Source: Streptomonospora salina (GTDB lineage Bacteria > Actinomycetota > Actinomycetes > Streptosporangiales > Streptosporangiaceae). Taken from it: 64,000 bases of DNA. The DNA is taken from the NCBI RefSeq assembly GCF_014204715.1, contig NZ_JACHLY010000001.1, positions 4,238,501-4,302,500 of the forward strand. The letters run 5' to 3'. This document shows positions 26,871 to 57,066 of the stretch, one piece after another (position 1 is the first letter of the stretch; every line of letters begins with the position of its first letter). The translations under genes were made by a program, and so were the position numbers. The notes below the pieces were generated by a model. That model searched no databases. It worked only from the letters and a program-made list of their open reading frames with translations, and was not told where the DNA came from.

Positions 26871-27145
26871 AAACAGAGCCGCTGACCCGTGAACAGGTGG
26901 CCCAGCTGCCGCCGGTGCTGGATCCGCCCACCGCCGGGCGGTTGCTGGGCATCGGTCGCACCAGCACTTACACGTTGCTGGCCGCCGGCGATTTCCCGGC
27001 CCCGGCCTTCCGGGCGGGCAAACGCTGGCGGATTCCCACCGCCGGGGTGTGCCGCCTGCTCGGCCTCACCTACCCGCCCCCACCCGGCCCGACCGAACCC
27101 GACGAGCAGAACCAGGAGGAGGAGAGCGATGGCCACCACGCGTGA
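26867..27145 (+). CDS. xis: Excisionase-like helix-turn-helix protein
   Basis: 92 residues. LDPPTAGRLLGIGRTSTYTL then GDFPAPAFRAGKRWRIPTAG is the HTH_17/MerR-type winged helix of actinobacterial Xis proteins, which bend att DNA and drive excision. It overlaps the start of the integrase gene by 17 bases. GTG at 26867 overlaps the preceding small ORF stop. Confidence 0.85.
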   Translation: MKTEPLTREQVAQLPPVLDPPTAGRLLGIGRTSTYTLLAAGDFPAPAFRAGKRWRIPTAGVCRLLGLTYPPPPGPTEPDEQNQEEESDGHHA

Positions 27146-28601
27146 GGGCACCACGTTCAAACGCTGCGGCTGCACCGACCCCGCCACCGGCAAACGCCTG
27201 GGCGCCGCCTGCCCGCGGCTCAAGCGCGCCAACGGCACCTGGAGCCCCACCCACGGACACTGGAGCTACCAGATCGAACTGCCACCCACCCGTGAGGGAA
27301 AACGGCGCCAGGCCCGACGCACCGGACTGGCTACCCGCGACGAGGCCTCCGAGGCCCTCGCCCACATCCGCGGCCTGCTGGATCTGGCCGGCGAGGACGA
27401 CTACACCGAGACCCGGATCGCCGACCTCGTGCAACAGGCTCTGCGCCAGCGTCGGGAACTGCCGGGAACCGAGGACGTGCGGCGGCGCCTGCTGGGCGGG
27501 GCCGACCCCAGCGCCGAGGCGCCCACCGTGGGGGAGTGGCTCACCGAGTGGGTGAACACCCATGCGATGGCCGAGAGCACCCGGCGCTCCTACCGGGGAC
27601 ACATCACCAACCACCTGGCGCCGCACCTGGGCCCCATCCGGTTGGACCGGCTGCGGGTCGTCCACGTCCAAGCCTGCTTCGACGCGATCGAGGAACGCAA
27701 CGCCCACATCCGCGCCTGCCGCGACTCCCGCGACGAGAAGGCCCGGGCCTCGGTACGGGGTGTGCGCGTCGTGTCGGCCTCGACGCAGCACCGCATCCGC
27801 GCCACGCTGCGCAGCGCCCTCAACGACGCCCTCACCCGCCCCGACATCCCGCTGCAGATCAACCCGGCCTGCCACGTCAACCTGCCCACCGCCCACCGGC
27901 CCCGGCCCCGGGTATGGACCCGGGCCCGCCTCGACCACTGGCGCCGCACCGGCGAGGTGCCCTCGCCGGTGATGGTGTGGACCCCCGAGCAGACCCGCGC
28001 CTTCCTCGATCGGGCGCGCCGGGACCGGCTGTATGCCCTGTTCCACCTCATCGCCCACCGCGGGCTGCGCCGCGGCGAAGCCGTCGGCCTGCCCTGGGCC
28101 GAGACCAGCCTGGAGGACCAGGCCGTCGATATCCGCATCCAGATGATCCAGCTCGGCTGGGACACGCTGACCTCCGTGCCCAAGAGCCGCGCCGGGGAGC
28201 GGAGCGTCACGCTGGACGAGGCGACCACCCGGGTCTTGCAGGAGTGGCGTACCCGCCAGAACAAGGAGCGTCTGGCCGCCGGGCCCGACTGGAACGAGTC
28301 CGGGTTGGTGTTCACCCACCCCGACGGGACGGGGCTGCGGCCCTCGTGGGTCAGTGAGGAGTTCGCCCGCATCGCCGCCCGGGCCGGTCTGCCGCCGATC
28401 CGGCTGCACGATCTGCGCCACGGCGCGGCCTCGCTCAGCCTGGCCGCCGGGGTCGACGTCAAGGTCGTGTCGGCGGAGTTGGGCCATTCCACTACGGCGT
28501 TCACTCAGGACACGTATCAGAGCGTGTTTCCCCGTGTGGCCCGCGAGGCGGCCGAGGCCACGGCCGGGTTGCTGTCCGGCGATGCCGCCCGGCAGGCCTG
28601 A
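27129..28601 (+). CDS. int: Tyrosine-type site-specific integrase
   Basis: 490 residues. N-terminal arm-binding part, core-binding domain (about 130-240: TVGEWLTEWVNTHA, STRRSYRGHI), and a catalytic domain with Arg in HRGLRRGEAVG (about 311-316), Lys in VPKSRAG, HDLRHGA (His427, Arg430), LGHST (His453) and the nucleophile Tyr463 in DTYQS. All catalytic residues are present, so likely active. It is the last gene of the rightward island and, with xis, identifies the island as an integrative element. No half-tRNA or clear att repeat was found next to it. Confidence 0.93.
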   Translation: MATTREGTTFKRCGCTDPATGKRLGAACPRLKRANGTWSPTHGHWSYQIELPPTREGKRRQARRTGLATRDEASEALAHIRGLLDLAGEDDYTETRIADLVQQALRQRRELPGTEDVRRRLLGGADPSAEAPTVGEWLTEWVNTHAMAESTRRSYRGHITNHLAPHLGPIRLDRLRVVHVQACFDAIEERNAHIRACRDSRDEKARASVRGVRVVSASTQHRIRATLRSALNDALTRPDIPLQINPACHVNLPTAHRPRPRVWTRARLDHWRRTGEVPSPVMVWTPEQTRAFLDRARRDRLYALFHLIAHRGLRRGEAVGLPWAETSLEDQAVDIRIQMIQLGWDTLTSVPKSRAGERSVTLDEATTRVLQEWRTRQNKERLAAGPDWNESGLVFTHPDGTGLRPSWVSEEFARIAARAGLPPIRLHDLRHGAASLSLAAGVDVKVVSAELGHSTTAFTQDTYQSVFPRVAREAAEATAGLLSGDAARQA

Positions 28602-29316: not shown

Positions 29317-30809
29317 CCGAGCCCCACGGACGTGGGGATGGACCGGACAAGAGCGGCCCGGGCGCCGGGGCCTACGTCCGAGCCCCACGGACGTGGGGAT
29401 GGACCGTCGATCCCGAACACCACCACGTCGTCGCAGGCCCGAGCCCCACGGACGTGGGGATGGACCGTTCCGCCACTCCCCAGCTCAAGGGCGGTTTGGC
29501 CGAGCCCCACGGACGTGGGGATGGACCGGCCGCCTGGTCGGCGGCCTCGGCCAGGCGCGCCCGAGCCCCACGGACGTGGGGATGGACCGCTCCTCGCGGT
29601 AGAGCCGGGCCAGGCGCAGGGCCGAGCCCCACGGACGTGGGGATGGACCGCTCAGCTCGATGTGCACCCCCGCCGAGCGGGCCCGAGCCCCACGGACGTG
29701 GGGATGGACCGAGGTCGGCCAGCTCGCCCCCAAGGACCTGGACCCGAGCCCCACGGACGTGGGGATGGACCGTAGGAGGCACGCACCCGTGAGCACCGAG
29801 AACACCGAGCCCCACGGACGTGGGGATGGACCGCAGCAGTGCGCATAATGAGCACTCCGTCGGTACCGAGCCCCACGGACGTGGGGATGGACCGTCTGTC
29901 AGGACACCCTGACACGCGCAAGGGGACCGAGCCCCACGGACGTGGGGATGGACCGCCTGCTCGACCAGTTCTGCGGACTGGGCGGCGCCGAGCCCCACGG
30001 ACGTGGGGATGGACCGGTGCTCGGCGATCTCGGCGTCGGTCATGTCGTCCGAGCCCCACGGACGTGGGGATGGACCGGCGGGTACGCGCGCGTACGTGCG
30101 CGCGTACCCCCGAGCCCCACGGACGTGGGGATGGACCGAAGGACGACGTGATGACGTCGATGCGCTCCGGCCGAGCCCCACGGACGTGGGGATGGACCGC
30201 GCCGTGGGACTGGCTCGTCGAGTACGGCATCCCGAGCCCCACGGACGTGGGGATGGACCGCACGCATCGGCGATCGCCAGCGGGACGACCGACCGAGCCC
30301 CACGGACGTGGGGATGGACCGACGACGCGTCACGCACCGCGGGGGAGTACCTGCCGAGCCCCACGGACGTGGGGATGGACCGCCCTTCGGCGGGGCGTTC
30401 ACCCTGGACCGCAACCGAGCCCCACGGACGTGGGGATGGACCGTCAGCCAGCTCCAGATCCGTGGTGATCCACATCCGAGCCCCACGGACGTGGGGATGG
30501 ACCGTCCATGGCGGTTCCCCTTGAGGGCACGCTGATCCGAGCCCCACGGACGTGGGGATGGACCGTCAGCCAGCTCCAGATCCGTGGTGATCCACATCCG
30601 AGCCCCACGGACGTGGGGATGGACCGTCCATGGCGGTTCCCCTTGAGGGCACGCTGATCCGAGCCCCACGGACGTGGGGATGGACCGTCAGCCAGCTCCA
30701 GATCCGTGGTGATCCACATCCGAGCCCCACGGACGTGGGGATGGACCGTGTACGGTCATCGTCTGCTCAGCCATACGCCCCCGAGCCCCACGGTTGTGAG
30801 GAGGTACCG
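29317..30809 (+). CRISPR. CRISPR array, type I-E-like, 25 repeats and 24 spacers
   Basis: 29-base repeat unit (core gagccccacggacgtgggga, stem arms CCCCAC and GTGGGG, tail TGGACCG) in a strict 61-base period with 32-base spacers. Repeats 1-24 start at 29317 and every 61 bases up to 30720 and are perfect; the last (30781-30809) is degenerate (ttgtgaggaggt in the middle), so transcription is left to right. Spacers 19 and 20 recur as 21 and 22, and 19 again as 23. Spacer 13 is a near-perfect palindrome. Repeat form and tail match type I-E repeats of actinobacteria. No cas gene lies within the window, so the array either uses a distant cas operon or is an orphan. Confidence 0.97.
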
Positions 30810-31084: not shown

Positions 31085-31128
31085 GCACCTGGCAGGATTC
31101 GAACCTGCGGCCGTCGGATTAGAAGTTA
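31085..31128 (-). other. 3' half of tRNA-Arg(TCT): integration (att) site
   Basis: Read on the reverse strand, this gives an anticodon loop cttctaa (anticodon TCT), the 3' side of the anticodon stem, the T arm gcagg-ttcgaat-cctgc and an acceptor side caggtgc, i.e. a complete 3' half of a tRNA-Arg, but the 5' half is absent: the bases above 31128 do not fit a D arm or acceptor. Such half-tRNAs are the distal att site of elements that integrate into tRNA 3' ends. The polarity places the element to the right of 31128 and the chromosome (with the CRISPR array) to the left. Confidence 0.75.
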
Positions 31129-33509: not shown

Positions 33510-34181
33510 GTAGCGGCCGTTCTGGAAGGGGCGTGTGGGGGTCGCGTCGCAGTAGCGTCCTTCGCTTCCGAGGTAGTACTTGCACAGTTGGTCGGTGCCG
33601 CCGCCTATGCCGCGCGCCAGCCACGCGGCGACCTCGGGACGAAGCGCGGTGCTCTGTATTTCCGGAGGGGCATCGAGGGTGTGTACCCATACGCCGGGAT
33701 CGACCAGGGCCCGGCTCTCCCCACCGCCTGCCCTGGTTGCGGCACGACCCTGTGCGCGTGGGTGATGAAGCAGTGAGTCCTGGGTGTTGCCATGACCTGA
33801 GGAGTCGCGCCCGCCGAGGCGGACGCGCTCAGGTAAGGCCCCTTCCGTGCAGGGGTGGCCGTGGTCGGCGGCGTAGTGGTCGCGGTCCTCGACGGTGGCC
33901 CACCATCTGGCCACGCCGCGGGTGCCGGGGATGGCGGCGGGCATGTAGACGCCGGCGCAAATAGCGCAGAGCCACAGCGCCGCGCACGGTCTGAAGTGGT
34001 CGGTCGTTGAGGATGCGCTCCCAGGTCCCATTTCTGCGGCTTGTCCACCACCACCTACAAATGTCTGAGGCTTCTGGCAGCATCCCCATAGGGTCGGCGC
34101 TCGGCACAGGGCACAAGGCGCCCGCTGGGCGCGGCGCGGGCGAAACCACAGTACGTCGGGGAGGCGAAGTGGCAGGAACAC
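33507..34181 (-). pseudogene. Hypothetical gene cut near its 3' end by the IS5-like element
   Basis: The reverse-strand frame ends EVAAWLARGIGGGTDQ ... RYCDATPTRPFQNGRY and then TGA supplied by the IS end. Beyond the other end of the IS (32565 downwards) the frame continues DHVPGC then TAA, so the uninterrupted gene would have ended NGRYDHVPGC. The C-terminal third looks like real protein; the N-terminal half is doubtful and may contain another frameshift. No family recognised (a CAIC pair suggests a metal site). Confidence 0.4.
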
Positions 34182-36493
34182 TCGGTTACACGATCTCGGT
34201 CAGGCATGTGTTCCAACGGAAATTCGGGTCAGATGAACTGGGCAATTCCATGTCCGGGTGCCACTGGTACATCATCTCGCGTAGGCCTCGCATCCGGATA
34301 TTGGAGGGAAGCCCCAGGATCAAAGACGGGATCCTGACCCTGGAGTTCATCGAAACTTCCCCAGAGAGCAACACGAGAAGGACATTTGCCCTTGGTAGCG
34401 AGTTGATCGACGAGGGGAATCGAGCCGTGTTCAAGACCTACGATCGGGGTTCCTATTTCTCCCTGCACGTCGATGGCCGGGTCATCCATGGTGACGCCTG
34501 GGCTTTAGCTTCCCTATTCTCCGCGGCGGATCGGGACGTGGCCAAACAGGAGGTCCTCTACATCGGACAGGCGTTCGCCGGTGGCCATGGAAACGCCTGG
34601 GAGAGGACATCTCATCACCAAAAGCTCCAGATGATTTATGAGGACCACGCCAGTGACCCTTGGGACATCTTCGTGTCACCGCTCATCTTGCAAAGGGGCA
34701 ACTTTCAGGGCGATGATCACATTGACGATTCCGAGGACGGCCCTTCCCTGGAGCGGTACCTCAGCGTGTTCTCTGGTAGAGAAGGAACAACTACCAAGAC
34801 TTCGATCGACCTCGTCGAGCACAGCCTTATCTCCTACTTCAACCCGCCCTACAACGAGCAGCTCAGAAACTGGAACGCTGCGAATCCCACCACAGCGATG
34901 CGGAAGATGAGGGACGCGGGTTTTCGACTCCTCCACGTACACCTCAGTGGGTGGCAAGGACTCTCCCGTTTCTACTCAGAAGAACAATCCGAGCCAAATA
35001 GGAGTCATTTTATCTCCCAGGACATCCCGCCCGCACCGCGACGACCGGTACTCCGAGGGGTATCGGCACAAGAGGTGAGCGACTGGAGAGACAATGCAAA
35101 ATTCATCGAGGAAGGTTCCGCGTTCTTCGCCAACATGGCTGAGGGGTCCGGGGTGGAACTGCTGGCCTTCGGTAACGACGCGCCGAAAATCAGGAAGCCC
35201 GCACCCGTCAGAATCTCGGAGAGTCACCAGCTGGCGGACGAAACAAGCCAAGAAGCGAGAGGAGAGAGCCTCGGCGCCTCCCATGACCAAGAGGAGGTGC
35301 ACAGGAAGATCATGGATGCTAGAAGAGCACGTTCAGCGGAAAAGGAGGCCCTCACCTACAAAGGCGAAGCCACCTACGACGGCAGGTTAGGAGTAATCAC
35401 TATCGGCCTCGATCGGGAGTGTGAGCCTGTCCATTGGAGTCTGCACGACAGTAAGGGCACTGTCGCCAATGGGCTCATCCTTGGCACCGACGGACAAGGG
35501 AAGAGCAGTCTCCTTCGGGTCATAGCGCACCAGGCTCTGCTTTCCAAGCGCTTCTCCCCTGTCCTCGTCCGTCCCGACGGCAGCGACCCAACACACGAGG
35601 CTGCACTGAAACAGCTCTCCGAGGTCGCAAAGGAGGTCGATATCAGGCTCGTCTCCGGTCCGAAGCATGAGTCCAGCAAGCGGAACCGTGGAATCATTTG
35701 TGCACTCGACGACTCCGACAAGGTTCTCGGATATCCTGGAGGGAGGGATCTCATCTTAAAGATCCTCACCCAAGGTCCGGCTTTGGGGGTGGGAATGGTC
35801 ATGGTGATCCGTGACCCAGATACGCTCCGCTTGTGCCCGGACATTACCAAGGATCTCATCACATCGACAAACCGTGTGGCCTTCATGGAGAATGCGGATG
35901 CAGTCCTCAACGCACTCGACACCGAATACGGGGAACGCCGAAAGTCCAGCATTTCTTTGGGGCGACCGACTTTCATGATATTCACCAGCGGCGACACCAG
36001 GTTCCTCACCTTCGTCAGCGGGTTCTTCGAGGTACGCGCGTCACACCACGAGGCTCGAGCATTCGCTACGCAACTCATCCAGGAGGCCCAACCCGATTCC
36101 CCGCTCCTTGGCGAATGGAAGCCACTCAGCGAGGACCACGACGCCTGGGCGTACTCCGCAGAACCCATGCTCACTTCGTGGTTTCTGCACAAGCACCCCG
36201 ATCGCTGGATCATCTCATGTGTCTTGGCGAGTTTCAGGCCAGTGCGTGAGGACTCACTGGCCGATTCCATAGAGTGGGCCGACTTCCGTTGGCACAACCG
36301 CTTCGAGGGTTCACTCGGGCCGTGGCGGATCGGCCCCACCGCCGCCTCCGCAACAGGCCCCACCCTGTACGCCGACGCGTTGTCTCCCTTCACTTTCAAG
36401 GATCAATCACAGAACTTCTGGGCTCTCCAGTCACACCTCTTCGGTTCTCGGCCCGAGCAGTCGCAGGGCTCCCGCGTGGGCCTCATCCAATGA
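34169..36493 (+). CDS. GIY-YIG-like nuclease fused to P-loop (FtsK/HerA-like) ATPase
   Basis: 774 residues. Residues about 125-235 show a GIY-YIG pattern: EVLYIGQAF (131-134 YIGQ), Arg146 and HHQKL after it, catalytic-type Glu217 in IDLVEHSLISYF and the closing PPYN (226-229). Residues about 405-700 are a P-loop ATPase of the FtsK/HerA kind: ECEPVHWSLHDSKGTVANGL, Walker A GTDGQGKSS (439-447), GIICALDD as a Walker B candidate, and a later VAFMENADAVLNALD stretch. GTG at 34169 follows GGGGAGG at six bases. GC is lower than in the neighbours. A nuclease-translocase in a defence island is a good anti-phage candidate. It stands alone as a single gene. Confidence 0.65.
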   Translation: MAGTLGYTISVRHVFQRKFGSDELGNSMSGCHWYIISRRPRIRILEGSPRIKDGILTLEFIETSPESNTRRTFALGSELIDEGNRAVFKTYDRGSYFSLHVDGRVIHGDAWALASLFSAADRDVAKQEVLYIGQAFAGGHGNAWERTSHHQKLQMIYEDHASDPWDIFVSPLILQRGNFQGDDHIDDSEDGPSLERYLSVFSGREGTTTKTSIDLVEHSLISYFNPPYNEQLRNWNAANPTTAMRKMRDAGFRLLHVHLSGWQGLSRFYSEEQSEPNRSHFISQDIPPAPRRPVLRGVSAQEVSDWRDNAKFIEEGSAFFANMAEGSGVELLAFGNDAPKIRKPAPVRISESHQLADETSQEARGESLGASHDQEEVHRKIMDARRARSAEKEALTYKGEATYDGRLGVITIGLDRECEPVHWSLHDSKGTVANGLILGTDGQGKSSLLRVIAHQALLSKRFSPVLVRPDGSDPTHEAALKQLSEVAKEVDIRLVSGPKHESSKRNRGIICALDDSDKVLGYPGGRDLILKILTQGPALGVGMVMVIRDPDTLRLCPDITKDLITSTNRVAFMENADAVLNALDTEYGERRKSSISLGRPTFMIFTSGDTRFLTFVSGFFEVRASHHEARAFATQLIQEAQPDSPLLGEWKPLSEDHDAWAYSAEPMLTSWFLHKHPDRWIISCVLASFRPVREDSLADSIEWADFRWHNRFEGSLGPWRIGPTAASATGPTLYADALSPFTFKDQSQNFWALQSHLFGSRPEQSQGSRVGLIQ

Positions 36494-36559
36494 GCGCTTT
36501 TCGTGTGGCACGACCGAGGAGATAGTCGATGTAGACGACTGACTTGTTGCTGTGCAGCT

Positions 36560-37726
36560 GATGGAGGAAGGCCCTCCGGAGCCGCCCTGCGGGGGGAGGC
36601 TTCAAACCGCCGTGTGCTGCGGGAGCGGTGACGCGACCGTGGTGAGCGACATGGAAAAGGCGGCCGTGAGCCGTCAGGTGGGGACTGCGGAGACGTTGCG
36701 CTGTCCTGGCGCGAGCCAGGGTGCTCTGCATGAAGCGTCGTTGATCACGAGGTGGTGTCGAAACCGGGAGGTGGAAAAGATCCCGGGACGAGTCTGGCGG
36801 GAGCCCGTCTACTGGCCAGGCGGCATCCGGCGTATAGGAGGCGTGAACGCGGTCTGCTGCGGCTGTGCGGAACGTGGGAAGGCCCTGCTTCGACAACGGT
36901 CGGGATAGGCCGGCGGAACGGCTCGTAGTAGAGGTGAAGCCCGTGCTCGGCGCGGTGGGGGTGGACCGAAGGGGTCGGGCAGTGCGTGACTCGCGGATGG
37001 ATCAACCGGGGATCGGAGGAATCCGTATGAGCGAGTCGCAGTCAGCAGCGGCGGCCAAGCCGTTCTCTATCTCCAAGTTGGAGGTCTGGCAGGCATGGGA
37101 GCAGGTGGGGGCCGACCGGGGTGCTGCCGGTGTCGACAGCGTCGCGCTGGGGGAGTTCGAGGAGGGGTTGAAGGACAACCTCTACAAGATCTGGAACCGG
37201 ATGTCCTCGGGTTCCTGTTTTCCCGACCCGGTCGGATCGATCGAGATAGCCAAGCCCGGCGGTGGCGCCAGGGTGCTGGGGATCCCGACCATCGCCGATC
37301 GGGTGGCGCAGACGGTGGCGGCGCGGCGGCTGGAGGCCGCGGCCGAGCCGCAGTTCCATCCGGACTCCGACGGGTTCCGGCCGGGCCGGTCGGCCCACGA
37401 CGCGGTCCGAACGTGCCGTAAGAGGTGCTGGGAGCGCCGATGGGTGGTCGACCTCGACATCGCGGGCTTCTTCGACGCTGGACTGGGGACTGCTCATGAA
37501 GGCGGTCGAGAGCCTCGGGCTGCCGGCCTGGGTTGGGCTGTATGTGCGGCGGTGGCTGGCCGTGGAGGCCGTTGCCGCCGATGGCCGGACGATCGCGCGG
37601 GATCGGGGCACGCCGCAGGGCGGGCTGGTCTCGCCGGTGCTGGCCGACCTGTTCCTGCACGATGCCTTCGACAGTTGGATGTCGGCCGGAATCGTGAGAT
37701 TTGGCAGCCGGACGATCACTGCATGA
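36560..37726 (+). mobile_element. Group II intron remnant (truncated at 3' end)
   Basis: About 430 bases of structured sequence (for example ccctggcgcgagccaggg-type hairpin near 36706-36722 and gaacgtgggaaggccctg near 36868) precede a group II intron reverse transcriptase gene, as in bacterial group II introns with RNA domains I-III first. The RT gene stops before its catalytic YxDD block and no domain V or VI is visible after it, so the 3' part is lost. The left boundary is approximate. Confidence 0.6.
37027..37726 (+). pseudogene. Group II intron reverse transcriptase/maturase, frameshifted and truncated
   Basis: Starts ATG 37027 and shows RT blocks 0-4: AAGVDSVALGEFEEGL, NLYKIWNRMSSGSCF, PVGSIEIAKPGGGARVLGIP, TIADRVAQTVAARRLE, DGFRPGRSAHDAV, VVDLDIAGFFD. 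After that Asp the frame must change (two bases missing near 37481) to continue as LDWGLLMKAVESLGLPAWVG and RGTPQGGLVSPVLADLFLHD. It then ends; the YxDD catalytic block, maturase and endonuclease domains are missing. Not functional. Confidence 0.85.
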
Positions 37727-38919: not shown

Positions 38920-39783
38920 TCAGCCGCGTTTGAGTACCCCGGTGCTGAGCCACTGCACGAGCAGGACAGCGAGGTGCACCGCTGCTTCGGCTTCATCCTG
39001 GGTTTGTTGACGGGCGAGCATTCCGCCAGCGTGCCGGGAATCATGGTGTTCCATAAGGAGTTGGCACATACCGATTAGCTTGTCGATGCTCTCCTTGGCA
39101 GGGCGCTCCGGGTCACCGAAGTTCAGAGTCCATTTCCCGGAAGCGGCCTGTTGTTGGAGGGCCTTATAGGATTTGCTGAGAGTGGGTTTCTCGGCTGTGG
39201 GATGCACCAGGGGGTTGAGCACGGCCTCGACGGCGAGGACCGCTTCGGCGTATGCGCCGTCCGGGTCCGGATTGGTCCGGTAAGCACTGTGCCATGCCTT
39301 CCGCAGGTGCTTCGAGGCAGCATCCGAGGCGTTCTCGCAGGCTTGATCGTAGGCGAGCTGCGCAGTCTCGTCGACGCGACGCATCAGGCAGCGATTCTCG
39401 GGATCGAAGCGCAAGTATGATCCTCCACGAAGGAGGATCCGACCCAATTCGACGCAGCTCTCGATGAGGGATTCGTTAGCGGGCGTTCCTGGTGGTGCGT
39501 TCCATCGCCGGTCCAGCTGAATCGCCGCATCGATCGCCGTCAGAAGATCGAGATCCCTGAGACTCAGGAGGGGGCTCAAGTAGTCGTAGCGGCCCCTCAC
39601 TGTATGGGGGGCAAGCCGGAACTCAAGCGTTACCTCCCGCGCCTCACGCTGTCCGACATGTGCTGTCATCCACTCTTTGAGGCACGGAAGCAGCCACTCG
39701 GGGGTGCCGGGGTGGACGGTGTCGTCTGTGGGTCGGCCGGCAAGCCGATCCCGAAGCAGATGAAGTCGTTGGTATTCGGTCAC
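38920..39783 (-). CDS. Abi/HEPN-like hypothetical protein
   Basis: 287 residues. The C-terminal 120 residues resemble the abortive-infection C-terminal (Abi_C, HEPN-like) pattern: AYAEAVLAVEAVLNPLVHP, TLSKSYKALQQ, then HHDSRHAGGMLARQQTQDEA followed by EAAVHLAVLLVQWL, where Arg-His-x-Gly stands at the place of the R..HG motif. The N-terminal part (CLKEWMTAHVGQREAREVTL) is helical and not recognised. If right, it would be an RNA-targeting toxin of phage defence. GTG at 39783. Alternative: unrelated helical protein. Confidence 0.5.
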   Translation of the reverse strand: MTEYQRLHLLRDRLAGRPTDDTVHPGTPEWLLPCLKEWMTAHVGQREAREVTLEFRLAPHTVRGRYDYLSPLLSLRDLDLLTAIDAAIQLDRRWNAPPGTPANESLIESCVELGRILLRGGSYLRFDPENRCLMRRVDETAQLAYDQACENASDAASKHLRKAWHSAYRTNPDPDGAYAEAVLAVEAVLNPLVHPTAEKPTLSKSYKALQQQAASGKWTLNFGDPERPAKESIDKLIGMCQLLMEHHDSRHAGGMLARQQTQDEAEAAVHLAVLLVQWLSTGVLKRG

Positions 39784-40135: not shown

Positions 40136-40864
40136 CTAGCCGGGGAACCCGAGGTCGCGCAGATAGCTGATACGCGCATTGACGCCCGCGCTGAAATGGG
40201 CCCAATCAAGAGCCTCTACAGGTTCACGCGGATAGGGGTTTTCCTTGGACGAGGTGACGTAGCACACGGAATCGTAGAGGTTCTCCTCGACGAGTCGCCG
40301 GCAGAAGATGGCGAACCGTTCCTGGTATGAGGTGTTGTGCCATACACTCTCGGACGGGATCGGTGCCTTGGGTGCGAGGCGGACCGGTGTCCTCGACTTC
40401 TCATGGTCCTCCATGATGAAAAAGTAGCCGAGCCATGGCTTCTCTCCGGGGTATATCTCTGCCAGAGCTGCCCGGCGCAGGTCTACGGCGCTCCCCAGCG
40501 CCTCTTCGATCCGGTTGTTGTAGTTGTTGCCGAACGACGGGCCGCCCAACGCCTTCATCTCAAAGGCAGCCACCAGGGTGTCGCCATGGGCGATAACGAC
40601 ATCCCACTGCTTCTGGGGGCGATAGTACCCTGGGAGCTCCATCCCCTGGCTTTTGGTGATCCTGACGGAGCTTTCCGGGTACCCCGCGTCTAAGAAGAAC
40701 TTCGCGATGAGTTCAGCGATCACGTCGAAATGCTTGCCGCCTCGGACGGCTCCGGCGGTGCCGGCGCCGACACGGCCCCGGACCTGAGAACTGCTGTTCT
40801 GCGCGTCCTTGGCGCCCCAGTACTCGGCGATCGCAGCTTCGAAGTCCTCTCGCGTGACCGCCAA
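40136..40864 (-). CDS. PaeR7I-type type II restriction endonuclease
   Basis: 242 residues, full length for the PaeR7I/XhoI family. KQWDVVIAHGDTLVAAFEMK carries the PD-(D/E)xK active site (Asp88, Glu102-x-Lys104), followed by the family signature GGPSFGNNYNNRIEEALGSA. Enzymes of this family cut CTCGAG; exact specificity here is inferred. TTG at 40864 with AGGAG upstream, nine bases after the methylase gene, so the two are one operon. Confidence 0.9.
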   Translation of the reverse strand: MAVTREDFEAAIAEYWGAKDAQNSSSQVRGRVGAGTAGAVRGGKHFDVIAELIAKFFLDAGYPESSVRITKSQGMELPGYYRPQKQWDVVIAHGDTLVAAFEMKALGGPSFGNNYNNRIEEALGSAVDLRRAALAEIYPGEKPWLGYFFIMEDHEKSRTPVRLAPKAPIPSESVWHNTSYQERFAIFCRRLVEENLYDSVCYVTSSKENPYPREPVEALDWAHFSAGVNARISYLRDLGFPG

Positions 40865-40873
40865 CGGGGTCTC

Positions 40874-42562
40874 CTAGTCGGGTAGCTCGTCCAGCCGGTA
40901 GGCGTCCAGGGCCGCCTGAGTCGCAGCCGCGACATCGCGGCGCTCGAAGGCGTCCCGCAGCGCCGCCTGAACCTTATCGCCGATTTGTTCGGGATGCGGA
41001 ACCCGGATCTTGCGCAGGTACTGGGCCTGGAACCGCAAGGTGCCTCCGCGCATCTTGACTCCGTAGGCATGGACGAAGGCCTGCGCGACACCCGACAGGA
41101 GCAGCCCGCCCAGCACCCGCAGATCCCACGTGTCGGAGACGATGTAGTACAGGTTGTGGTGGGGATAGAAGCCGCCTTCATCCAGCACGGGATGGATGGT
41201 GGTCTTCATATCGGGCAGGAGCAGCTTCGGGCGGCCGATCAGCGAATGGTCGACCTTGTCGATGGTCTTATACCAGCGGTGGGGCTGCTTCACGGCGACA
41301 TAGCGCCGCTGCAGAGCATCGGCATGGGCTGAGAAATGGCGCCGCACCTTGGGGAAGTCCTGCAGCGAGACCAGGTCGCCGGCGGGAGTCCACGGGTTGA
41401 TCAGGTAGCGCCCCTGCCAAGCGAACGTGCCTGAGGCGGTGTCGCGCACCGTGGCCAAGGGAAGCAGGCGCTCAGGTTCGACCGCGTCGGGGTCGGTGGT
41501 GATGAAGACTTTGTCGGCCCCGGTGGCGATACCGATGCCCACGCGTGTGGTGCCGGCGGGGTCCTGCAAAACCGGGAACCGGTCGCTGAGATCTTCGAGG
41601 AACGCCAGGCGGGCCGGGGAAGCGCTCGGCCAGAAATCACTGCCGCTGAACCAGTGGGGGAGTCGCGCGGCCTGATAACCGGTCTCCTCCACCAGCGCCG
41701 GGCCGTCTCCACGCATCCACTTCCGCAGCCGGCCGGCCTGCTCGGCGGAGAAGTCGCCGGACGTCTCGACGGCGACCGCCTCGCCTTGTGCACGGTTGCT
41801 GATGACGGTGATCGCGGGATAGGCCGCGACCTGTTCCTCAAAGGCGTCGACGTCGTGCATGGAGATGACGGCATCGACGCTATAGGAGCGCGTCACGAAT
41901 TCCCGCAAGTGGGATCCGTATTGGTTGTGCATCCATCGGTCGGCGCAGATGAAGCCCAGGGCCCCGTCAGGGTTGAGGCTCCGCAGGGCCGCCTCGTAGA
42001 AACCGACATAGATGTCCGCGCGTCCGCCCATGGTGGGATAGGCGGCGCGGTAGGCGGACATGCGCGCCGCGGGGACGTCTTCGAGGCGGATGTAGGGAGG
42101 GTTGCCGACGACGTAGTCGATCCCCCGGTCCCTGTGCTGATCGAGGAGGTAGTCGCCTTGGCGGACCCACGCCTCGGCACAGCGGTGGACCTCGGCTGCG
42201 CCCCACCCGTGGGCAGCGAGTTCCTGCCGCACCGTGGCACGGCTGGATTCGACGTTGTCGGCGAGGAGGTCGAATCCGGTGACGGAATGGAGGGCCTCGT
42301 CCAGGCTGCGCCCGTGGCGACGGCAGGACTCACTGAGTCTGCGGGCGATCGGCCCGAGGAACGCTCCGCGGCCGCAGGCGGGCTCGGCGATCACGTATCG
42401 GGCGAGATCGCGATCGGGCGTGTAGCCGACGAGGTCGAGTAGCAGTTCCACGACCCAGGGGCGGGTGAACACCTCTCCGTGCTCGATCGCTTCTTGGAGC
42501 GAGGGAGGGAGCAGGTCATCGTCCTGGTGGAGCCCTAGCTGTGTCACATCTGGACTGTACAA
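40874..42562 (-). CDS. N6-adenine DNA methyltransferase of the PaeR7I-type system
   Basis: 562 residues. Motif I EPACGRGAF (60-68), catalytic NPPY at 154-157 in DYVVGNPPYIRL, and a long C-terminal target-recognition region (LRKIRVPHPEQIGDK near the end), as in M.PaeR7I/M.XhoI. It precedes and protects against the downstream endonuclease; the methylase-first order allows protection before cutting. Start is TTG at 42562 or GTG at 42547; neither has a good ribosome site, so a leaderless transcript is possible. Confidence 0.88.
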   Translation of the reverse strand: MYSPDVTQLGLHQDDDLLPPSLQEAIEHGEVFTRPWVVELLLDLVGYTPDRDLARYVIAEPACGRGAFLGPIARRLSESCRRHGRSLDEALHSVTGFDLLADNVESSRATVRQELAAHGWGAAEVHRCAEAWVRQGDYLLDQHRDRGIDYVVGNPPYIRLEDVPAARMSAYRAAYPTMGGRADIYVGFYEAALRSLNPDGALGFICADRWMHNQYGSHLREFVTRSYSVDAVISMHDVDAFEEQVAAYPAITVISNRAQGEAVAVETSGDFSAEQAGRLRKWMRGDGPALVEETGYQAARLPHWFSGSDFWPSASPARLAFLEDLSDRFPVLQDPAGTTRVGIGIATGADKVFITTDPDAVEPERLLPLATVRDTASGTFAWQGRYLINPWTPAGDLVSLQDFPKVRRHFSAHADALQRRYVAVKQPHRWYKTIDKVDHSLIGRPKLLLPDMKTTIHPVLDEGGFYPHHNLYYIVSDTWDLRVLGGLLLSGVAQAFVHAYGVKMRGGTLRFQAQYLRKIRVPHPEQIGDKVQAALRDAFERRDVAAATQAALDAYRLDELPD

Positions 42563-51975: not shown

Positions 51976-52557
51976 TTAGCGCGCGGCCTTGGCTCGGGCG
52001 CGAGCGGCGACCGTGCGGGCCCCGGTCGCATTCATCCGCCAGCGTGCGAACTCAATGCTCACCTCGAATGTGGAGGCGACCCAATCGTTGTCATGCTGTT
52101 TGAGGGCGGAGCGGACCGCGGCGTCGCGGGGAATGAGAAGTTCGCCGCTAAGTTCTGCGGCCTGATCTTCTTGAGCGGAATCACTCTGCCGACACCGGCC
52201 CGAGAGGTGAAGGGTCGTCGTGAACTCATGCTCGAGGAGGACATGCGCCAGTTCGTGGGCCACAGTGGAACGCAGACGTACCGCTGGGTGCGCCGAGTTA
52301 ACCACAATTGCGTGACCAGTGCCGATGGGCAACAGGGCCCCGGAAAAGGCCGCAGGTCGGGTGTTGGTGAAGTACGCATGCGCCTCTTGGATCACCCCGC
52401 CTTCGGAGGCGAGATCGGTGAGGGTAAAGACGTGAATGCCGTGGTGTTCGGCCAATAGGTAGGGATCGAGTGGCTGGAAAAGGTCATATCCCAGTTCCGC
52501 GCGCTCCTCTTCGGCGATCCTCTTAGCGTAGGCCTTAGTGAACTTCGATGCCGCCAC
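51976..52557 (-). CDS. ImmA/IrrE-type metallopeptidase
   Basis: 193 residues. HELAH at 101-105 in STVAHELAHVLLEH is the zinc-protease motif; LGYDLFQPLDPYLLAEHHGI and AAELSGELLIPRDA are further family marks. ImmA peptidases cleave XRE-type repressors such as the one encoded just upstream, derepressing mobile elements or stress genes. GTG at 52557 follows the upstream XRE gene by a few bases. Confidence 0.88.
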   Translation of the reverse strand: MAASKFTKAYAKRIAEEERAELGYDLFQPLDPYLLAEHHGIHVFTLTDLASEGGVIQEAHAYFTNTRPAAFSGALLPIGTGHAIVVNSAHPAVRLRSTVAHELAHVLLEHEFTTTLHLSGRCRQSDSAQEDQAAELSGELLIPRDAAVRSALKQHDNDWVASTFEVSIEFARWRMNATGARTVAARARAKAAR

Positions 52558-52560
52558 AGA

Positions 52561-52938
52561 TCACCGCTCCTGGTCGCGCCGAGGTGCGCGGACACGACGC
52601 ACCGTCGCCTGGACGATCTCCTCGATGTAGGACACGTCGTCGGGCGTCAGGTCGCGACGCGCCCGCAAGAGGGGGCCAATCTGTGTGACGAGTTCCGGCT
52701 CGGGACGGTTCACCGGCTCCTCAGACTCATTGACCAGGAACTGCTCAGCGGGCACCCCAAGCCAACGCACCAAGGTGGCGAAGGAGTCGACGTCTGGGCG
52801 CAAGCCGTTACTAAGGCGAGAGAGTAGAGAGGGGCTGACCTGCATCTCCTTGGCCAACTGGCGCCAGGAGAGCTCCCTGGTGCGGCGTTCGGAATCCAGT
52901 GCGGCGTATAGCGCTTCGACGTCGAGATGCTGGCGCAT
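52561..52938 (-). CDS. XRE-family repressor (ImmR-like)
   Basis: 125 residues. Helix-turn-helix: LSWRQLAKEMQVSPSLLSRL, SNGLRPDVDSFATLVRWLG, then a Pro/Glu-rich tail. ATG at 52938 follows AGGAGAG. Paired with the ImmA peptidase directly downstream, as in ICE and phage repressor-protease switches. Confidence 0.88.
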   Translation of the reverse strand: MRQHLDVEALYAALDSERRTRELSWRQLAKEMQVSPSLLSRLSNGLRPDVDSFATLVRWLGVPAEQFLVNESEEPVNRPEPELVTQIGPLLRARRDLTPDDVSYIEEIVQATVRRVRAPRRDQER

Positions 52939-53071
52939 GTCGTCTCTCCTTCGTCCGCCGGGGTGGCGCCTCATTCTCGCATCAGTGGTTCGAACTCGAC
53001 ACACCGACCCCTGGCGTGTCAGACTCGACCCAGCGTATCGATGGCGAGACATTCGATCCTGGAGGTACCCC

Positions 53072-53230
53072 ATGTCCAACCGCAAGGCCCCGTCCGCTCC
53101 CTCCGGAGGTAACGGCCGCAATCGCAGCGCGATCTCCGGTCGCTTCGTGACTTCGGAAACGGTACGTCGACACCCGCGGACGACCGTCACCGAGAAGCCG
53201 AAGCCGAACCAGTCAAAGAAACGGAAGTAG
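53072..53230 (+). CDS. Small basic protein (SGRFVT...RRHPRTTVTE type)
   Basis: 52 residues. RSAISGRFVTSETVRRHPRT and TVTEKPK resemble small conserved actinobacterial proteins of unknown role that occur near XRE/ImmA-type genes. ATG at 53072 after GGAGG. Divergent from the XRE gene. Confidence 0.65.
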   Translation: MSNRKAPSAPSGGNGRNRSAISGRFVTSETVRRHPRTTVTEKPKPNQSKKRK

Positions 53231-53677
53231 TCAACGGAGTGCCGAGGCGCTTGGGGATGACAGCCGCAAGTGCCTCCTGCCTCTTCGGCCTGATGCCATC
53301 TTTGGCTGCTGGTGTACGCGACCTTACACACTGACATAGCGGTTGTGGATGTACCCCAGCGTCGGCAGTGGGTCAGGGGGAAGCGCTTTAGAGTTCCTTC
53401 GCAGCCCCTGGTGGCAGTGGCAACGTCGATCCGCTGCCCGGCCATAGCTGAACATCGCTGCCGAGTCGCACGCGGCGTAACGGCGGCAGCGAGATCCCGA
53501 CGAGGTGCCTTCGGGGGCTTGTGCAGGCGCCTTCATAGGCTCCGCTGTCTCACATGGAATGGGTGGCACCGCATACGCTGCCAGCCGAGACGCCTGACGT
53601 AACCGGAGAACAGCACCTTGAGCGGTAGCTGGTCGCGGACGCCGCTTCAATCTATCCCCTACCAAGAGGCAGCCGCC
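53231..53677. other. Intergenic region, no gene seen
   Basis: About 450 bases without a frame of convincing codon usage; weak frames on both strands do not begin with a ribosome site. No repeat or hairpin of note. Confidence 0.35.
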
Positions 53678-54246: not shown

Positions 54247-55260
54247 ATCAAGCACGTCGACTACTTCAAAAACTTCCTCAACAACTCCGTCAACCTCTCC
54301 CAAACCAAGCTGGAAACCCTCAGTGGGCGAACCGACGCCATCTATGAGCTTTTGAAAGAAGACGAGGATCTGGGGCCGCTACTCAAGAAGAAGATCCCAC
54401 AGGGCTCATGGCCACAGAAGACCATTATCAACCCGCAGAACGGCAAAGCCTTCGACGGTGACTTCATGGTGCAGATGGTCGAGAAATCTGAATGGGCAGA
54501 TAACTTGAAAGAGTACGGTGACGCCGTCTACAACGTGCTGCACAAGAAGTCGCCCTATAAGGATATGCCTCACGGGCGGAAATGTCGATGTGTTTACGTG
54601 CAGTACGCTGAGAACGTGATGCATGTCGATATCGTCCCCTTCGTGGTCCGTTCTGACGGAACTCAGTGGATCATCAACCGTGATGACAACGAATGGGAGC
54701 GCACCGACACGGAAGGCTTCACGGATTGGATGAAAAGGAAGGACGAGATTGCCAACGGTCACTTGCGTGAAGTCGTACGCATAATGAAATTCCTGCGCGA
54801 CCACAAGAACTCCTTCACGGGAACAAAGTCGGTTCTGCTTACGACGATGCTCGGGGAACGAGTTGAAGAGTGGCGGAAATTCGGTGACCCCGCGTATTAC
54901 GGGGATCTCCCGACTGCCCTGCTTCACATCATCTCTGACCTCGATGTGTGGCTCCAGGAACAGACGACCAAGCCGGAGATCATCGACCCGTCTGGCACCG
55001 GCACGTCTTTCGGGCATCGCTGGAAGGAGGAGACATTCTTCTACTTCCGCGATCGCATCCAATCGCACGCTGCTGAAATCAAGTCCGCCTACAAGGAACC
55101 CGACCCCGACAAGAGCCTGAAGAAGTGGCAAAACCTCTTCGGTAGTGGGTTCAAGGAACCCGAGAAATCCACGTCGAGCGGAAAGTACACTGGTACCGGT
55201 GCCGCCGGTGCCGCATCAATGGGAGCCACCACCATCAATCACTCAGGACGCGCGGGGTGA
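54247..55260 (+). CDS. cdnD: CBASS CD-NTase (cGAS/DncV-like nucleotidyltransferase)
   Basis: About 337 residues. QGSWPQKTI (GS motif at 53-54), catalytic Asp70 and Asp72 in KAFDGDFMVQM and third Asp128 in MHVDIVPFV form the nucleotidyltransferase site; KRKDEIANGHLREVVRIMKF belongs to the DncV-like helical lobe. It makes a cyclic oligonucleotide on phage infection; the product cannot be told from sequence (gene symbol is a family guess). The C terminus ends SGRAG, a free C-terminal Gly as used for E1-E2 type conjugation by Cap2. The conserved N terminus (IKHVDYFKNFLNNSVNLSQT) has no ATG, GTG or TTG in frame: the best start is ATC at 54247 with GGAGG six bases upstream. TTG at 54352 would delete conserved residues. 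Confidence 0.82.
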   Translation: MKHVDYFKNFLNNSVNLSQTKLETLSGRTDAIYELLKEDEDLGPLLKKKIPQGSWPQKTIINPQNGKAFDGDFMVQMVEKSEWADNLKEYGDAVYNVLHKKSPYKDMPHGRKCRCVYVQYAENVMHVDIVPFVVRSDGTQWIINRDDNEWERTDTEGFTDWMKRKDEIANGHLREVVRIMKFLRDHKNSFTGTKSVLLTTMLGERVEEWRKFGDPAYYGDLPTALLHIISDLDVWLQEQTTKPEIIDPSGTGTSFGHRWKEETFFYFRDRIQSHAAEIKSAYKEPDPDKSLKKWQNLFGSGFKEPEKSTSSGKYTGTGAAGAASMGATTINHSGRAG

Positions 55261-55508
55261 GAAGGAGTCGCCTCAGTAACTGGCAGCGCCTGGTCCTCGC
55301 CGACCTCTCTGCCATATCCAAGACGTTCCCAGGCGACGTCGAGATGCAGGGCCGCTACCGGCTGGACCGCGAGGGAGCGATGAAGTTCCGGATCCGGGTG
55401 TATACGGCCGCATCGCGCAAACCGAAGCGGGCCTCCAGCTCGGTGAGTACGAGGAGTTCTTCCTTACTGTCCACCAATCGTTCCTGGTGCCACCGCAGGT
55501 CGAAGTAG
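55257..55508 (+). CDS. N-terminal fragment of Cap2 (E2-like part) before a frameshift
   Basis: GTG at 55257 overlaps the CD-NTase stop (GTGA), so this is the natural start of the second CBASS gene. It reads LSNWQRLVLADLSAISKTFP and GAMKFRIRVY, then must lose frame near 55400, because the expected continuation GRIAQTEAGLQLGEYEEFF lies one frame over and leads straight into the 55487 frame. A single missing base (or two extra) explains it. The listed protein ends in nonsense residues at 55508. Confidence 0.7.
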   Translation: MRRSRLSNWQRLVLADLSAISKTFPGDVEMQGRYRLDREGAMKFRIRVYTAASRKPKRASSSVSTRSSSLLSTNRSWCHRRSK

Positions 55509-57019
55509 ACCACTTCCGATTTGTACACCACGCCCATGTTCTCGAGGGGCAGCGTCTATGCCTTTACCTCGACCCCGCACGGGAATGGGACCCGATCAAC
55601 GGGCTCGGCGGTTTCCTCGACCGACTCTTCGAATGGCTTGCGGATGCGGCCGCGGGGCGCTTCGATGCCCAAACTGCCCTGTATCACGCAGTCGGCGGTG
55701 TCCTGCACCTCACGAGCGGATCGCCGACCGTGGTCATCCGCAACGGTTTGCGATCGGATGTTCGGGTGCAGCACGGGTGGCTGGTCGCACGAGCACCTCA
55801 TCGGTTCGATCTGGTTGTGAAACGCCCTTCCGAAGCACTGGAGGCGGTACATGTGCCGATCGTGACACTCGACAGCGATCTGCCGCTCGGCGCTGGCTCC
55901 GACTTGGTCCGCCTCCTGCGCAAGGTTGACAACCCGTATGCCGGATCTCCGGATCCGCGAGCCGCCTTTCGTACCATGCCGGTAAACGCCGGGATCTCGA
56001 AAACGTTGCTCACGGTGCTCGGTACGAGCGCAATCCGCAAACCCGAGGGCGTACCTCAGGCCGTCGTGATCGCCGTCCCCCATCCGGCCGGCGGTCCGCC
56101 CCACCTATTGGTCGCCAGCATTCCGGCCTCTGGTGCTGACCACCTGCGCACTCTGATGCGAGCAGGTAGGAAGGAGGGCTTCGTGACCGAGGTCCCCCCG
56201 GAGAAGGTCGCTGCCGACACTCCGGTGGAGTGGTGGCGGGTTTCCGACGATCGAGCAGAGGTCACAACACGGCGTGATTGGTCACGACCGGTCGCTGCCT
56301 TCTCAGGTAAGACAGTCCACATCTGGGGATGCGGAGGGCTCGGCTCCTGGGTGGCGGATTACGTAGTGCGTGCAGGGGCGAAGGAGGTGACCCTCTGCGA
56401 TCCGGGAAGCATCACGACTGGTCTCCTGGTCCGGCAGAACTTCACGGAGGCCGATGTCGGCAACGCCAAGGTGGAGGCGCTCGCTCGGCGGTTGCGCGCG
56501 ATCAATGACACCGTGAAGGTCTCCGTTCACGGCACGGTGATACCGGACGAACTGGATCTTACCGCGGTGGACCTCATCATCGACGCGACCGTGAGCATCG
56601 CTATCAGCCGTGTCCTCGACAGCGTCGCGGCCGGATTGGGACGTCCCGCTCTGGCCCAGATGGCGACCGACGCCCGGACCGGGACGCTCGGCATCATGTC
56701 CGTCTCCATGCCAAACCTGACCGGCGGGCCCTTGTCCATCGACAGGCAGGCCGGGAAGAGGGTCCTGAGCGACGGCACTCTCGAGGCCTTCCACGATCTG
56801 TGGAACACGTCGGAAATGAACGCCGAGATCATCCCGACACGCGGGTGCTCAACGCCGACCTTCCACGGTTCCGCCGCCGATTTGGCCGGGGTGGCGGCGA
56901 GCCTGACCAGCATCCTCGGCTCCCACATCGGGGCGGTCACACCCGTATCCGGCACGCATCTGATCTCCCTCCCGCATGGAGAGGCCGGACCACTACGGAC
57001 ATTCCTCCCAGCGGAGTGA
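55487..57019 (+). CDS. cap2: Cap2: E2-E1 fusion conjugating enzyme of CBASS (frame-displaced)
   Basis: 510 residues from GTG 55487, but the conserved protein begins at 55257 and crosses a frameshift near 55400. E2-like part: HVLEGQRLCLYLDPAREWDP with a Cys in CLYLDP, and LFEWLADAAAG. E1/ThiF part from about residue 275: HIWGCGGLGSWVADYVVRAG (ATP-binding Rossmann), DPGSITTGLLVRQNF, VDLIIDATVSIAISR, and the catalytic Cys region PTRGCSTPTFHGS. Cap2 attaches the CD-NTase C-terminal Gly to a target to prime it. No Cap3 (JAB) gene is present, so this resembles a reduced type II CBASS. Confidence 0.8.
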   Translation: MPPQVEVDHFRFVHHAHVLEGQRLCLYLDPAREWDPINGLGGFLDRLFEWLADAAAGRFDAQTALYHAVGGVLHLTSGSPTVVIRNGLRSDVRVQHGWLVARAPHRFDLVVKRPSEALEAVHVPIVTLDSDLPLGAGSDLVRLLRKVDNPYAGSPDPRAAFRTMPVNAGISKTLLTVLGTSAIRKPEGVPQAVVIAVPHPAGGPPHLLVASIPASGADHLRTLMRAGRKEGFVTEVPPEKVAADTPVEWWRVSDDRAEVTTRRDWSRPVAAFSGKTVHIWGCGGLGSWVADYVVRAGAKEVTLCDPGSITTGLLVRQNFTEADVGNAKVEALARRLRAINDTVKVSVHGTVIPDELDLTAVDLIIDATVSIAISRVLDSVAAGLGRPALAQMATDARTGTLGIMSVSMPNLTGGPLSIDRQAGKRVLSDGTLEAFHDLWNTSEMNAEIIPTRGCSTPTFHGSAADLAGVAASLTSILGSHIGAVTPVSGTHLISLPHGEAGPLRTFLPAE

Positions 57020-57066
57020 ACGAGCATGGGGCAGACGGCGAGACCGCCGGTACGACATAGCGTCGG

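Follow-up and report, generated by a model that had tools for sequence, protein, structure and literature searches.

A candidate one-gene defence protein of Streptomonospora salina joining a GIY-YIG-like nuclease to an FtsK-type P-loop domain

What is the role of a solitary gene that appears to hold, in one chain, both a nuclease and a relative of DNA pumps? The question is raised by a 64,000-nucleotide stretch of Streptomonospora salina DNA (NCBI RefSeq assembly GCF_014204715.1, contig NZ_JACHLY010000001.1, positions 4,238,501 to 4,302,500 of the forward strand), named here the window. An earlier note, made from the sequence alone, described an open reading frame (ORF) at 34169-36493 as a fusion of a GIY-YIG-like nuclease and a P-loop translocase and as a possible new defence protein. 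The gene is real, and it belongs to a rare, mobile, one-gene family. With a likelihood a little short of even, its product is a self-contained single-chain anti-invader nuclease of integrative elements, with a captured, motor-deficient pump domain. It is proposed that the N-terminal domain cuts DNA via an active site of the GIY-YIG type, with a beta-rich insert between its two halves, and that in one actinobacterial lineage this nuclease was joined to an FtsK-type domain like that of the TraSA-like pumps (a label given in the present analysis) of its own genome. The ATP-binding pocket would be retained in most copies, and the P-loop domain would more likely serve as a nucleotide-gated DNA-binding or assembly platform, bringing the nuclease to incoming double-stranded DNA; the target may be elements that move by related pumps. 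If this is right, 'HerA/FtsK capture' would extend to a one-gene system whose captured pump has lost its motor function. It would also bring in a nuclease family whose GIY-YIG motif is split and which, in three phyla, is found by itself on plasmids as well as chromosomes, with some copies near known defence systems.

The gene and its nuclease half

In window coordinates, the gene and the features of its nuclease half are the following.

34158..34164, forward strand: Shine-Dalgarno-like GGGGAGG, four bases ahead of the GTG (by eye)
34169..36493, forward strand: fused gene, 774 amino acids (aa), GTG start; in order, GIY-YIG-like nuclease, linker, FtsK/TraSA-like P-loop domain, family-specific C-terminal domain
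34262..34270, forward strand: HxY motif, residues 32-34, proposed to be the GIY half; its Y34 (invariant in 13/13 rows of alignment A8) would be the first catalytic tyrosine
34301..34534, forward strand: beta-rich insert, residues 45-122, separating the two motif halves (AlphaFold domain model; predicted local distance difference test, pLDDT, 84.0; predicted template modelling score, pTM, 0.84)
34559..34618, forward strand: YIG (131-133) through R146 and H150; Y131, G133, R146 and H150 invariant in 13/13 rows of A8
34817..34855, forward strand: E217 to N229, ExxxIxxFxPxYN (A8 and profile comparison)

The frame forms one continuous chain from the GTG at 34169 to the stop at 36493, as the earlier note had placed it. 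Its start is supported by the GGGGAGG just upstream and by a MAGTL start found also in fused relatives. The guanine-plus-cytosine (GC) content is, as noticed before, lower in the gene (58.1%) than in the whole window (69.7%), and the genome holds one match to the 774-aa protein. Searched as a single sequence, the protein gave only weak P-loop matches in Pfam, NCBIfam, PADLOC and PDB, and those in Pfam and NCBIfam all stayed below their cut-offs. Among the matches listed, no description of the family was found in the open-licence PubMed Central (PMC) literature.

The residues of the nuclease half were compared in A8, an alignment of 13 sequences from three phyla, 20-49% identical to the window protein, which excludes the Priestia, Rhodococcus, Proteus, G903 and G1025 relatives. 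Y34, Y131, G133, R146, H150, E217, L220, I221, F224 and P226 are invariant in all 13 rows; N229 is kept in 12 of them, and L033 has one additional residue before YN. Four more relatives outside A8 (L097, L099, L105, L106) fit the pattern. The GIY-YIG set, namely the tyrosines of the GIY and YIG halves followed by arginine, histidine, glutamate and asparagine, is found in order, a Priestia copy being the exception. All residues pointed out earlier are present (YIGQ from Y131, R146, H150, E217 and PPYN at 226-229), so the proposed skeleton holds from Y131 on; the first tyrosine motif at 32-34 had been overlooked. Y34 lies 97 residues before Y131, a separation due to the beta-rich insert. R.Eco29kI, UvrC and I-TevI have the same Tyr, Tyr, Arg, His, Glu, Asn set, yet they carry no fused ATPase and were not recovered by fold or hidden Markov model (HMM) searches with the window nuclease. 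In R.Eco29kI, the R104/H108 (R-x3-H) and E142/N154 (E-x11-N) spacings equal those of the window protein, whereas its two tyrosines are 27 residues apart instead of 97; changes at Y49, R104, H108, E142 and N154 are described as abolishing or strongly reducing its cleavage (PMC1952068). A motif pattern written from the family matched 54 of 2,402 open segments (many loci redundant). Fifty-two of these are family members, the remaining two lie in other frames at UvrC loci, and 0/12,010 shuffled segments matched, which argues that the residue pattern exceeds chance. The pattern misses members L027, L032, L038, L096 and L098.

Profile comparisons were made against 30 GIY-YIG domains picked from related genomes by Pfam PF01541 (UvrC-type by eye). 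The insert-trimmed nuclease profile reached 91% with a score of 41.3, the best of 100 column shuffles scoring 18.5, and the profile from YIG onward reached 71%, with 0/100 shuffles equally high. Taken as single sequences, the 30 domains had a median score of 25.6, with probabilities of 4.0-78.8 and a median probability of 27.5; among 187 decoys the top score was 20.7 (6.5%). The nuclease model has a strand at 33-44, the insert, a strand at 126-134, a helix at 143-148 that holds R146, a strand at 165-182 and a helix at 210-224 that holds E217. This order of strands and helices is the one expected for GIY-YIG.

Several results weigh against this assignment. The untrimmed 13-row nuclease profile reached 62% and 1/100 shuffles was higher (a freak score of 139), and an earlier, smaller 11-row profile reached just 18-29%, the best of 40 shuffles giving 5%. 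The AlphaFold check named in the earlier note came out divided, since the fitting strand and helix order stands beside a Foldseek search in which no GIY-YIG structure is found in the best 50 of 1,187 PDB matches; nor is there one in the best 50 of 1,253 matches to viral structures. HMMER searches of PDB sequences with the A4 and A7 alignments gave no match, the Pfam GIY-YIG model matches 0/12 members, and the T5orf172 profile reached 0.5% against the nuclease. The Priestia copy that was read, outside A8, lacks the conserved arginine and histidine, so some relatives may be inactive. The nuclease half likely has the GIY-YIG fold, and the N-terminal domain would cleave DNA.

Searches of other collections gave a viral Foldseek match (probability 0.87) to a 98-aa Hokovirus protein without assigned function, and PHROG 15714 (308 positions), likewise without assigned function, which matches 12/12 A4 nuclease domains (E up to 10, best 2.9e-28). 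Two Shiga-toxin-B-like matches, at E 0.0065 and 0.013 and each to a single member, were put down to chance. PADLOC, which probably contains models for PD-T4-3 and PD-lambda-1, matched the nuclease domains just once (PDC-S14, E 0.057).

The P-loop half and the C-terminal domain

The second half of the chain comprises the following features.

35366..36103, forward strand: FtsK/TraSA-like P-loop domain, residues 400-645, approximate limits (profile, full model, Foldseek)
35483..35509, forward strand: Walker A GTDGQGKSS, 439-447, with K445 (alignment A5)
35690..35719, forward strand: Walker B GIICALDDSD, 508-517, with DD in place of the controls' DE
35777..35812, forward strand: stretch from P537 (site of the missing arginine finger) to R548 (site of the missing sensor-1 Gln), from the alignment with controls
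36104..36442, forward strand: C-terminal domain, residues 646-758, approximate limits, with conserved Trp residues (alignment/model)

The kinship of the P-loop domain was followed with A5, a 7-row alignment of the ATPase domain, whose profile matches EccC 4nh0 at E 3.6e-7 and DptH at 0.05. With the full-length model (pLDDT 74.6, pTM 0.46), Foldseek returned EccC first (E 6.5e-7), then the FtsK motor and TcpA, at template modelling (TM) scores that are low because only part of the model aligns. In hhalign comparisons, three TraSA-like proteins of the same genome reached 93-96%, another FtsK-type protein 95% and FtsK itself 33%. By fold, profile and Walker A and B motifs, the domain belongs to the FtsK/HerA clade. 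The P-loop GTDGQGKSS was located correctly in the earlier note, but its lysine is K445 and not Lys444.

The domain is shared, by profile and fold, with TraSA-like proteins of pSAM2-type elements and with EccC of type VII secretion; it differs from them in lacking the arginine finger, the sensor-1 Gln and the Walker B Glu. In 7/7 rows of A5, the arginine-finger position is P, G or S, the sensor-1 position is R, S, G or A, and Walker B reads DD. The aligned block is SQGRSVG...LQDP in the TraSA-like proteins and TQGPALG...IRDP in the window protein. Both the arginine finger and the sensor-1 Gln are present in 5/5 controls of the same genome (FtsK, another FtsK-type protein and three TraSA-like ones), and both are named as clade evidence in the HerA/FtsK literature (PMC10853773). 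The Walker A Lys is present in 6/7 rows; in the Nocardia NRRL S-836 copy (L028, GDTGTGRSN) it is Arg. The proposed joining of a GIY-YIG-type residue set to an FtsK/HerA-clade P-loop in one chain stands, while the word "translocase" is doubtful given the loss of the finger, the sensor-1 Gln and the Walker B Glu, which the earlier note had overlooked, and the domain probably does not pump. It looks like a motor-deficient FtsK-type relative that is still constrained. Purifying selection acts on the gene, as the ratio of nonsynonymous to synonymous substitution (dN/dS) against the copy of Nocardiopsis sp. JB363 is ~0.10 for the nuclease, ~0.24 for the ATPase and ~0.32 for the C-terminal part; a second pair (Actinomadura, G120) was unusable, its dS being saturated. 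The C-terminal domain shows, beside the conserved Trp, conserved WA and GP positions.

Distribution, mobility and neighbouring genes

A search of genome contigs with the bare protein gave no relative, and an alignment-based search gave 12 loci. Ten fused copies were found: the window gene, Nocardiopsis sp. JB363 (L025, same contig as G229, gene end at the contig end), G174 (interrupted), Actinomadura WMMA1423, Frankia nepalensis (few residues masked), Nocardia NRRL S-836, Streptomonospora mangrovi, Microbispora amethystogenes, G120 and Actinokineospora iranica (broken, without P-loop). The broken copy was left out of every alignment and tree, and two folding alignments exclude the Frankia copy, with its few masked residues, and all loci from the wider genome searches. 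The full protein matches 11/297 family-level genomes, three of them (G173, G028, G294) in the P-loop region only; one P-loop-only match, L010, is FtsK-like by eye. Nuclease-domain profiles match 2/396 phylum, 10/345 order (one weak) and 7/394 class genomes, with the own genome counted each time. No relative was found in a scan of viral contigs, nor by tblastn with two queries against phage records.

Nuclease-only relatives of ~290-360 aa occur in Gulosibacter, Nocardiopsis chromatogenes, Asanoa, Streptomyces G44, Sphaerisporangium, G305, G903 and G1025. When the plasmid collection was searched by tblastn with the whole protein, none of the three matching records covered 80% of it, so the collection holds no fused copy. 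With L035 as query, 36 records matched: Priestia 26, Rhizobium 3, Sinorhizobium 2, and one each of Rhodococcus, Acinetobacter, Proteus (a 4.1-Mb record), Agrobacterium and Staphylococcus. Nuclease-only relatives are present on plasmids as well as chromosomes, in three phyla, and a nuclease domain that occurs alone probably needs no ATPase to work. In a tree of 25 nuclease domains, which includes the Priestia (one copy for many), Rhodococcus, Proteus, G903 and G1025 relatives, the nine fused rows group with Gulosibacter in a single starred clade (100/100). The fused label needs two changes on this tree, and one suffices in 39% of bootstrap trees; this agrees with the ATPase having been gained once, whether or not Gulosibacter lost it. 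Judged by eye, branching order and host taxonomy do not correspond. One nuclease-only copy on a Priestia plasmid (L098:5992-6861) is without the conserved Arg and His and is possibly inactive and repurposed.

Two further features concern the mobility of the gene.

34059..36598, forward strand: 2.54 kb alignable with G174 at 83% DNA identity, being the gene and ~110 bp on each side (DNA alignment)
31089..31125, forward strand: 37-bp copy of the 3' half of tRNA-Arg(TCT), a direct repeat; the intact tRNA gene is the following copy, ~51.5 kb further along and beyond the window

As the earlier note held, the gene stands alone between mobile pieces, here a piece of an insertion sequence (IS) transposase (32.7-33.5 kb) and one of a group II reverse transcriptase (36.9-37.7 kb). 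Among 231 neighbour ORFs of 15 loci there is no partner-like gene; those that recur are integrases and other element or chromosomal genes, and integrase-like genes are present at 8/15 loci. The genome holds four exact copies of the 37-bp repeat across 224 kb (window 31089-31125; C1:4096844, 4138471 and 4321119, the last with the intact tRNA-Arg(TCT) gene), which suggest an accretion hotspot of integrative elements; the 51.5-kb interval from window 31089 to the intact tRNA holds both the fused gene and the defence genes of the window. In G174, two repeats 3.2 kb apart (C1:4135235 and 4138483) bracket the gene, with no other convincing gene between them. Five copies in all, within 24 kb, split its region C1:4124633-4148177 (L015 and neighbours) into short stretches, and the region looks like an array built by tRNA-targeting integrases. 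In JB363, one repeat precedes the gene and a second follows it, the latter on a different contig, so that the gene lies in a tRNA-Arg(TCT) repeat array in three genomes. The G120 and Frankia loci each have an FtsK protein, and that of G120 also a NUDIX gene, a type listed among the genes of actinomycete integrative and conjugative elements (AICEs) (PMC11706625). Elsewhere in the window, a CRISPR-like repeat array (by eye, a repeated peptide pattern) lies at 29372-30720, after an integrase at 26889-28601.

It is the context of neighbouring genes that suggests a role in defence. In the window, the candidates are the following.

38920-39783: PDC-S32-like gene (E 5.6e-5; HEPN-like by eye)
40136-42562: XhoI-family restriction enzyme and type II methyltransferase, adjacent
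51976-53445, reverse strand: CapP-like and helix-turn-helix (HTH)-like genes near CBASS
54352-58260: cyclic-oligonucleotide-based antiphage signalling system (CBASS), with cyclase, E1-E2 protein and SAVED-HNH effector

Near nuclease-only relatives there are Hachiman (Agrobacterium), Orf5/HEC-06-type and AbiTii genes (G1025), an ApeA-like HEPN gene and a type IV restriction gene (Asanoa), PDC-S30 (G903), PDC-S28 (Sinorhizobium) and an annotated MspI restriction-modification system (Acinetobacter). The neighbourhood survey named in the earlier note is, however, mixed, for the near-defence position of some relatives is set against two points that lower its weight: the ten ORFs near nuclease-only relatives, eight of which matched, had been hand-picked as defence-like, and near eight other fused loci, where 59/88 listed ORFs were scanned, the tally is thin, 36 PADLOC families matching at 1e-6. 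Among the matches listed (25 of the 36 families), mad8 has three members, PDC-S07 two and HTH_VI two, and RmrA, RmrT, Csx1 and Cas12-type families have one each; the Cas12f matches were taken to be probable transposon TnpB-type proteins.

Alternative explanations and known systems

An unlikely alternative is that the protein is a transfer or maintenance factor of its own element, acting in DNA processing during transfer or in incompatibility, and not in defence. The Microbispora copy sits with a pSAM2-type element, recognised by its integrase, RepSA and an FtsK protein, and in two Priestia plasmids the relative comes after replication and plasmid stabilization genes. However, loci L016, L018 and L027 already have their own FtsK-type protein, few genomes carry the gene (7/394 class genomes), and some relatives lie near defence genes.

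It is also conceivable, although doubtful, that an integrative element acquired a copy of a TraSA/TraB-type conjugation pump, which lost its motor residues and was fused to the split-motif GIY-YIG nuclease, so that the product docks on or joins the pumps of rival elements, or their pump-loading sites, and cuts double-stranded DNA in transfer. A single gene would then suffice to exclude elements that spread among actinomycetes by FtsK-type conjugation of double-stranded DNA. Improbable to a like degree is a working translocase-nuclease, in which the P-loop domain, with non-canonical finger and sensor residues, moves DNA towards the nuclease in the manner of HerA-nuclease defence systems. The FtsK-like fold, the purifying selection on the domain, the nearly constant Walker A Lys and the two Walker B acids kept in 7/7 copies speak for it. 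Against it stands the loss of the three motor residues in every aligned copy, along with the Lys-to-Arg change in Nocardia; in DUF4297-HerA, Walker A and R-finger mutations are described as drastically cutting ATPase activity (PMC11291478). The broken Actinokineospora copy does without a P-loop altogether.

Rather more doubtful is a selfish nuclease, such as a free-standing homing endonuclease, that drives its own spread. The gene is solitary, patchy and mobile, and the unit alignable with G174 measures 2.5 kb with a single gene; GIY-YIG enzymes include free-standing homing endonucleases. However, homing enzymes are not known to need a fused ATPase, and the gene is found in tRNA repeat arrays, AICE-like elements and diverse plasmids, a recurring target gene not having been searched for. 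The least probable reading, that the N-terminal domain has another fold with a coincidental residue pattern, draws on the negative Foldseek, HMMER and Pfam searches, but it has to contend with invariant GIY-YIG positions at matching spacings and a trimmed profile above shuffles and decoys, and an insert within a small fold could defeat a fold search.

How would the preferred reading, a single-chain anti-invader nuclease, relate to known systems? MADS is a multi-gene set containing the mad8 ATPase. It was set aside, as mad8 matches just residues 410-461 (E 6.2e-5) and also 3/59 neighbour ORFs elsewhere, which are probably FtsK-type; among the scanned window ORFs there is no mad gene set, with methylase matches to mad2 only. 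The DUF4297 nuclease is of the PD-(D/E)XK type, unlike that of the window protein. DUF4297-HerA has in common with it a nuclease and an ATPase of the HerA/FtsK superfamily, but it is described as two proteins whose arginine finger is present and needed (PMC11291478). Two-protein nuclease-HerA defence in general was rejected, the window gene giving one chain with no recurring partner.

The combination of a nuclease and FtsK-type domain in one chain is already known from DndH, and the GIY-YIG-type pairing is a new variant of it. DndH/DptH likewise join an endonuclease and a HerA/FtsK-clade domain in one chain, and under 'HerA/FtsK capture', a theme shared here, the ATPase is taken from mobile-element or cellular pumps and interception of invader DNA is proposed (PMC10853773). 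According to the same source, DndH averages 1,700 residues, has a restriction endonuclease (REase) domain, acts with DndF/DndG and keeps the sensor-1 Gln and arginine finger; the window protein is GIY-YIG-type, encoded by a single gene, and lacks both residues. DndH/DndFGH itself was excluded, as there was no Dnd match for the window protein or the scanned neighbour ORFs (seven in one scan, five in another). While 'HerA/FtsK capture' is the nearest concept (PMC10853773; PMC12839542), the nearest functional analogue is Odn (ICP1 Gp88), likewise one chain, in which a GIY-YIG-superfamily nuclease is aimed by a fused domain captured from an enemy element (PMC8263062). Odn differs in being phage-encoded and in combining a T5orf172 nuclease, whose profile does not match the window protein, with a RepA DNA-binding domain (PMC8263062). 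GIY-YIG domains are also reported in the E. coli defence systems PD-T4-3 and PD-lambda-1 (PMC10952713), and a GIY-YIG system is mentioned in a further source (PMC9519451).

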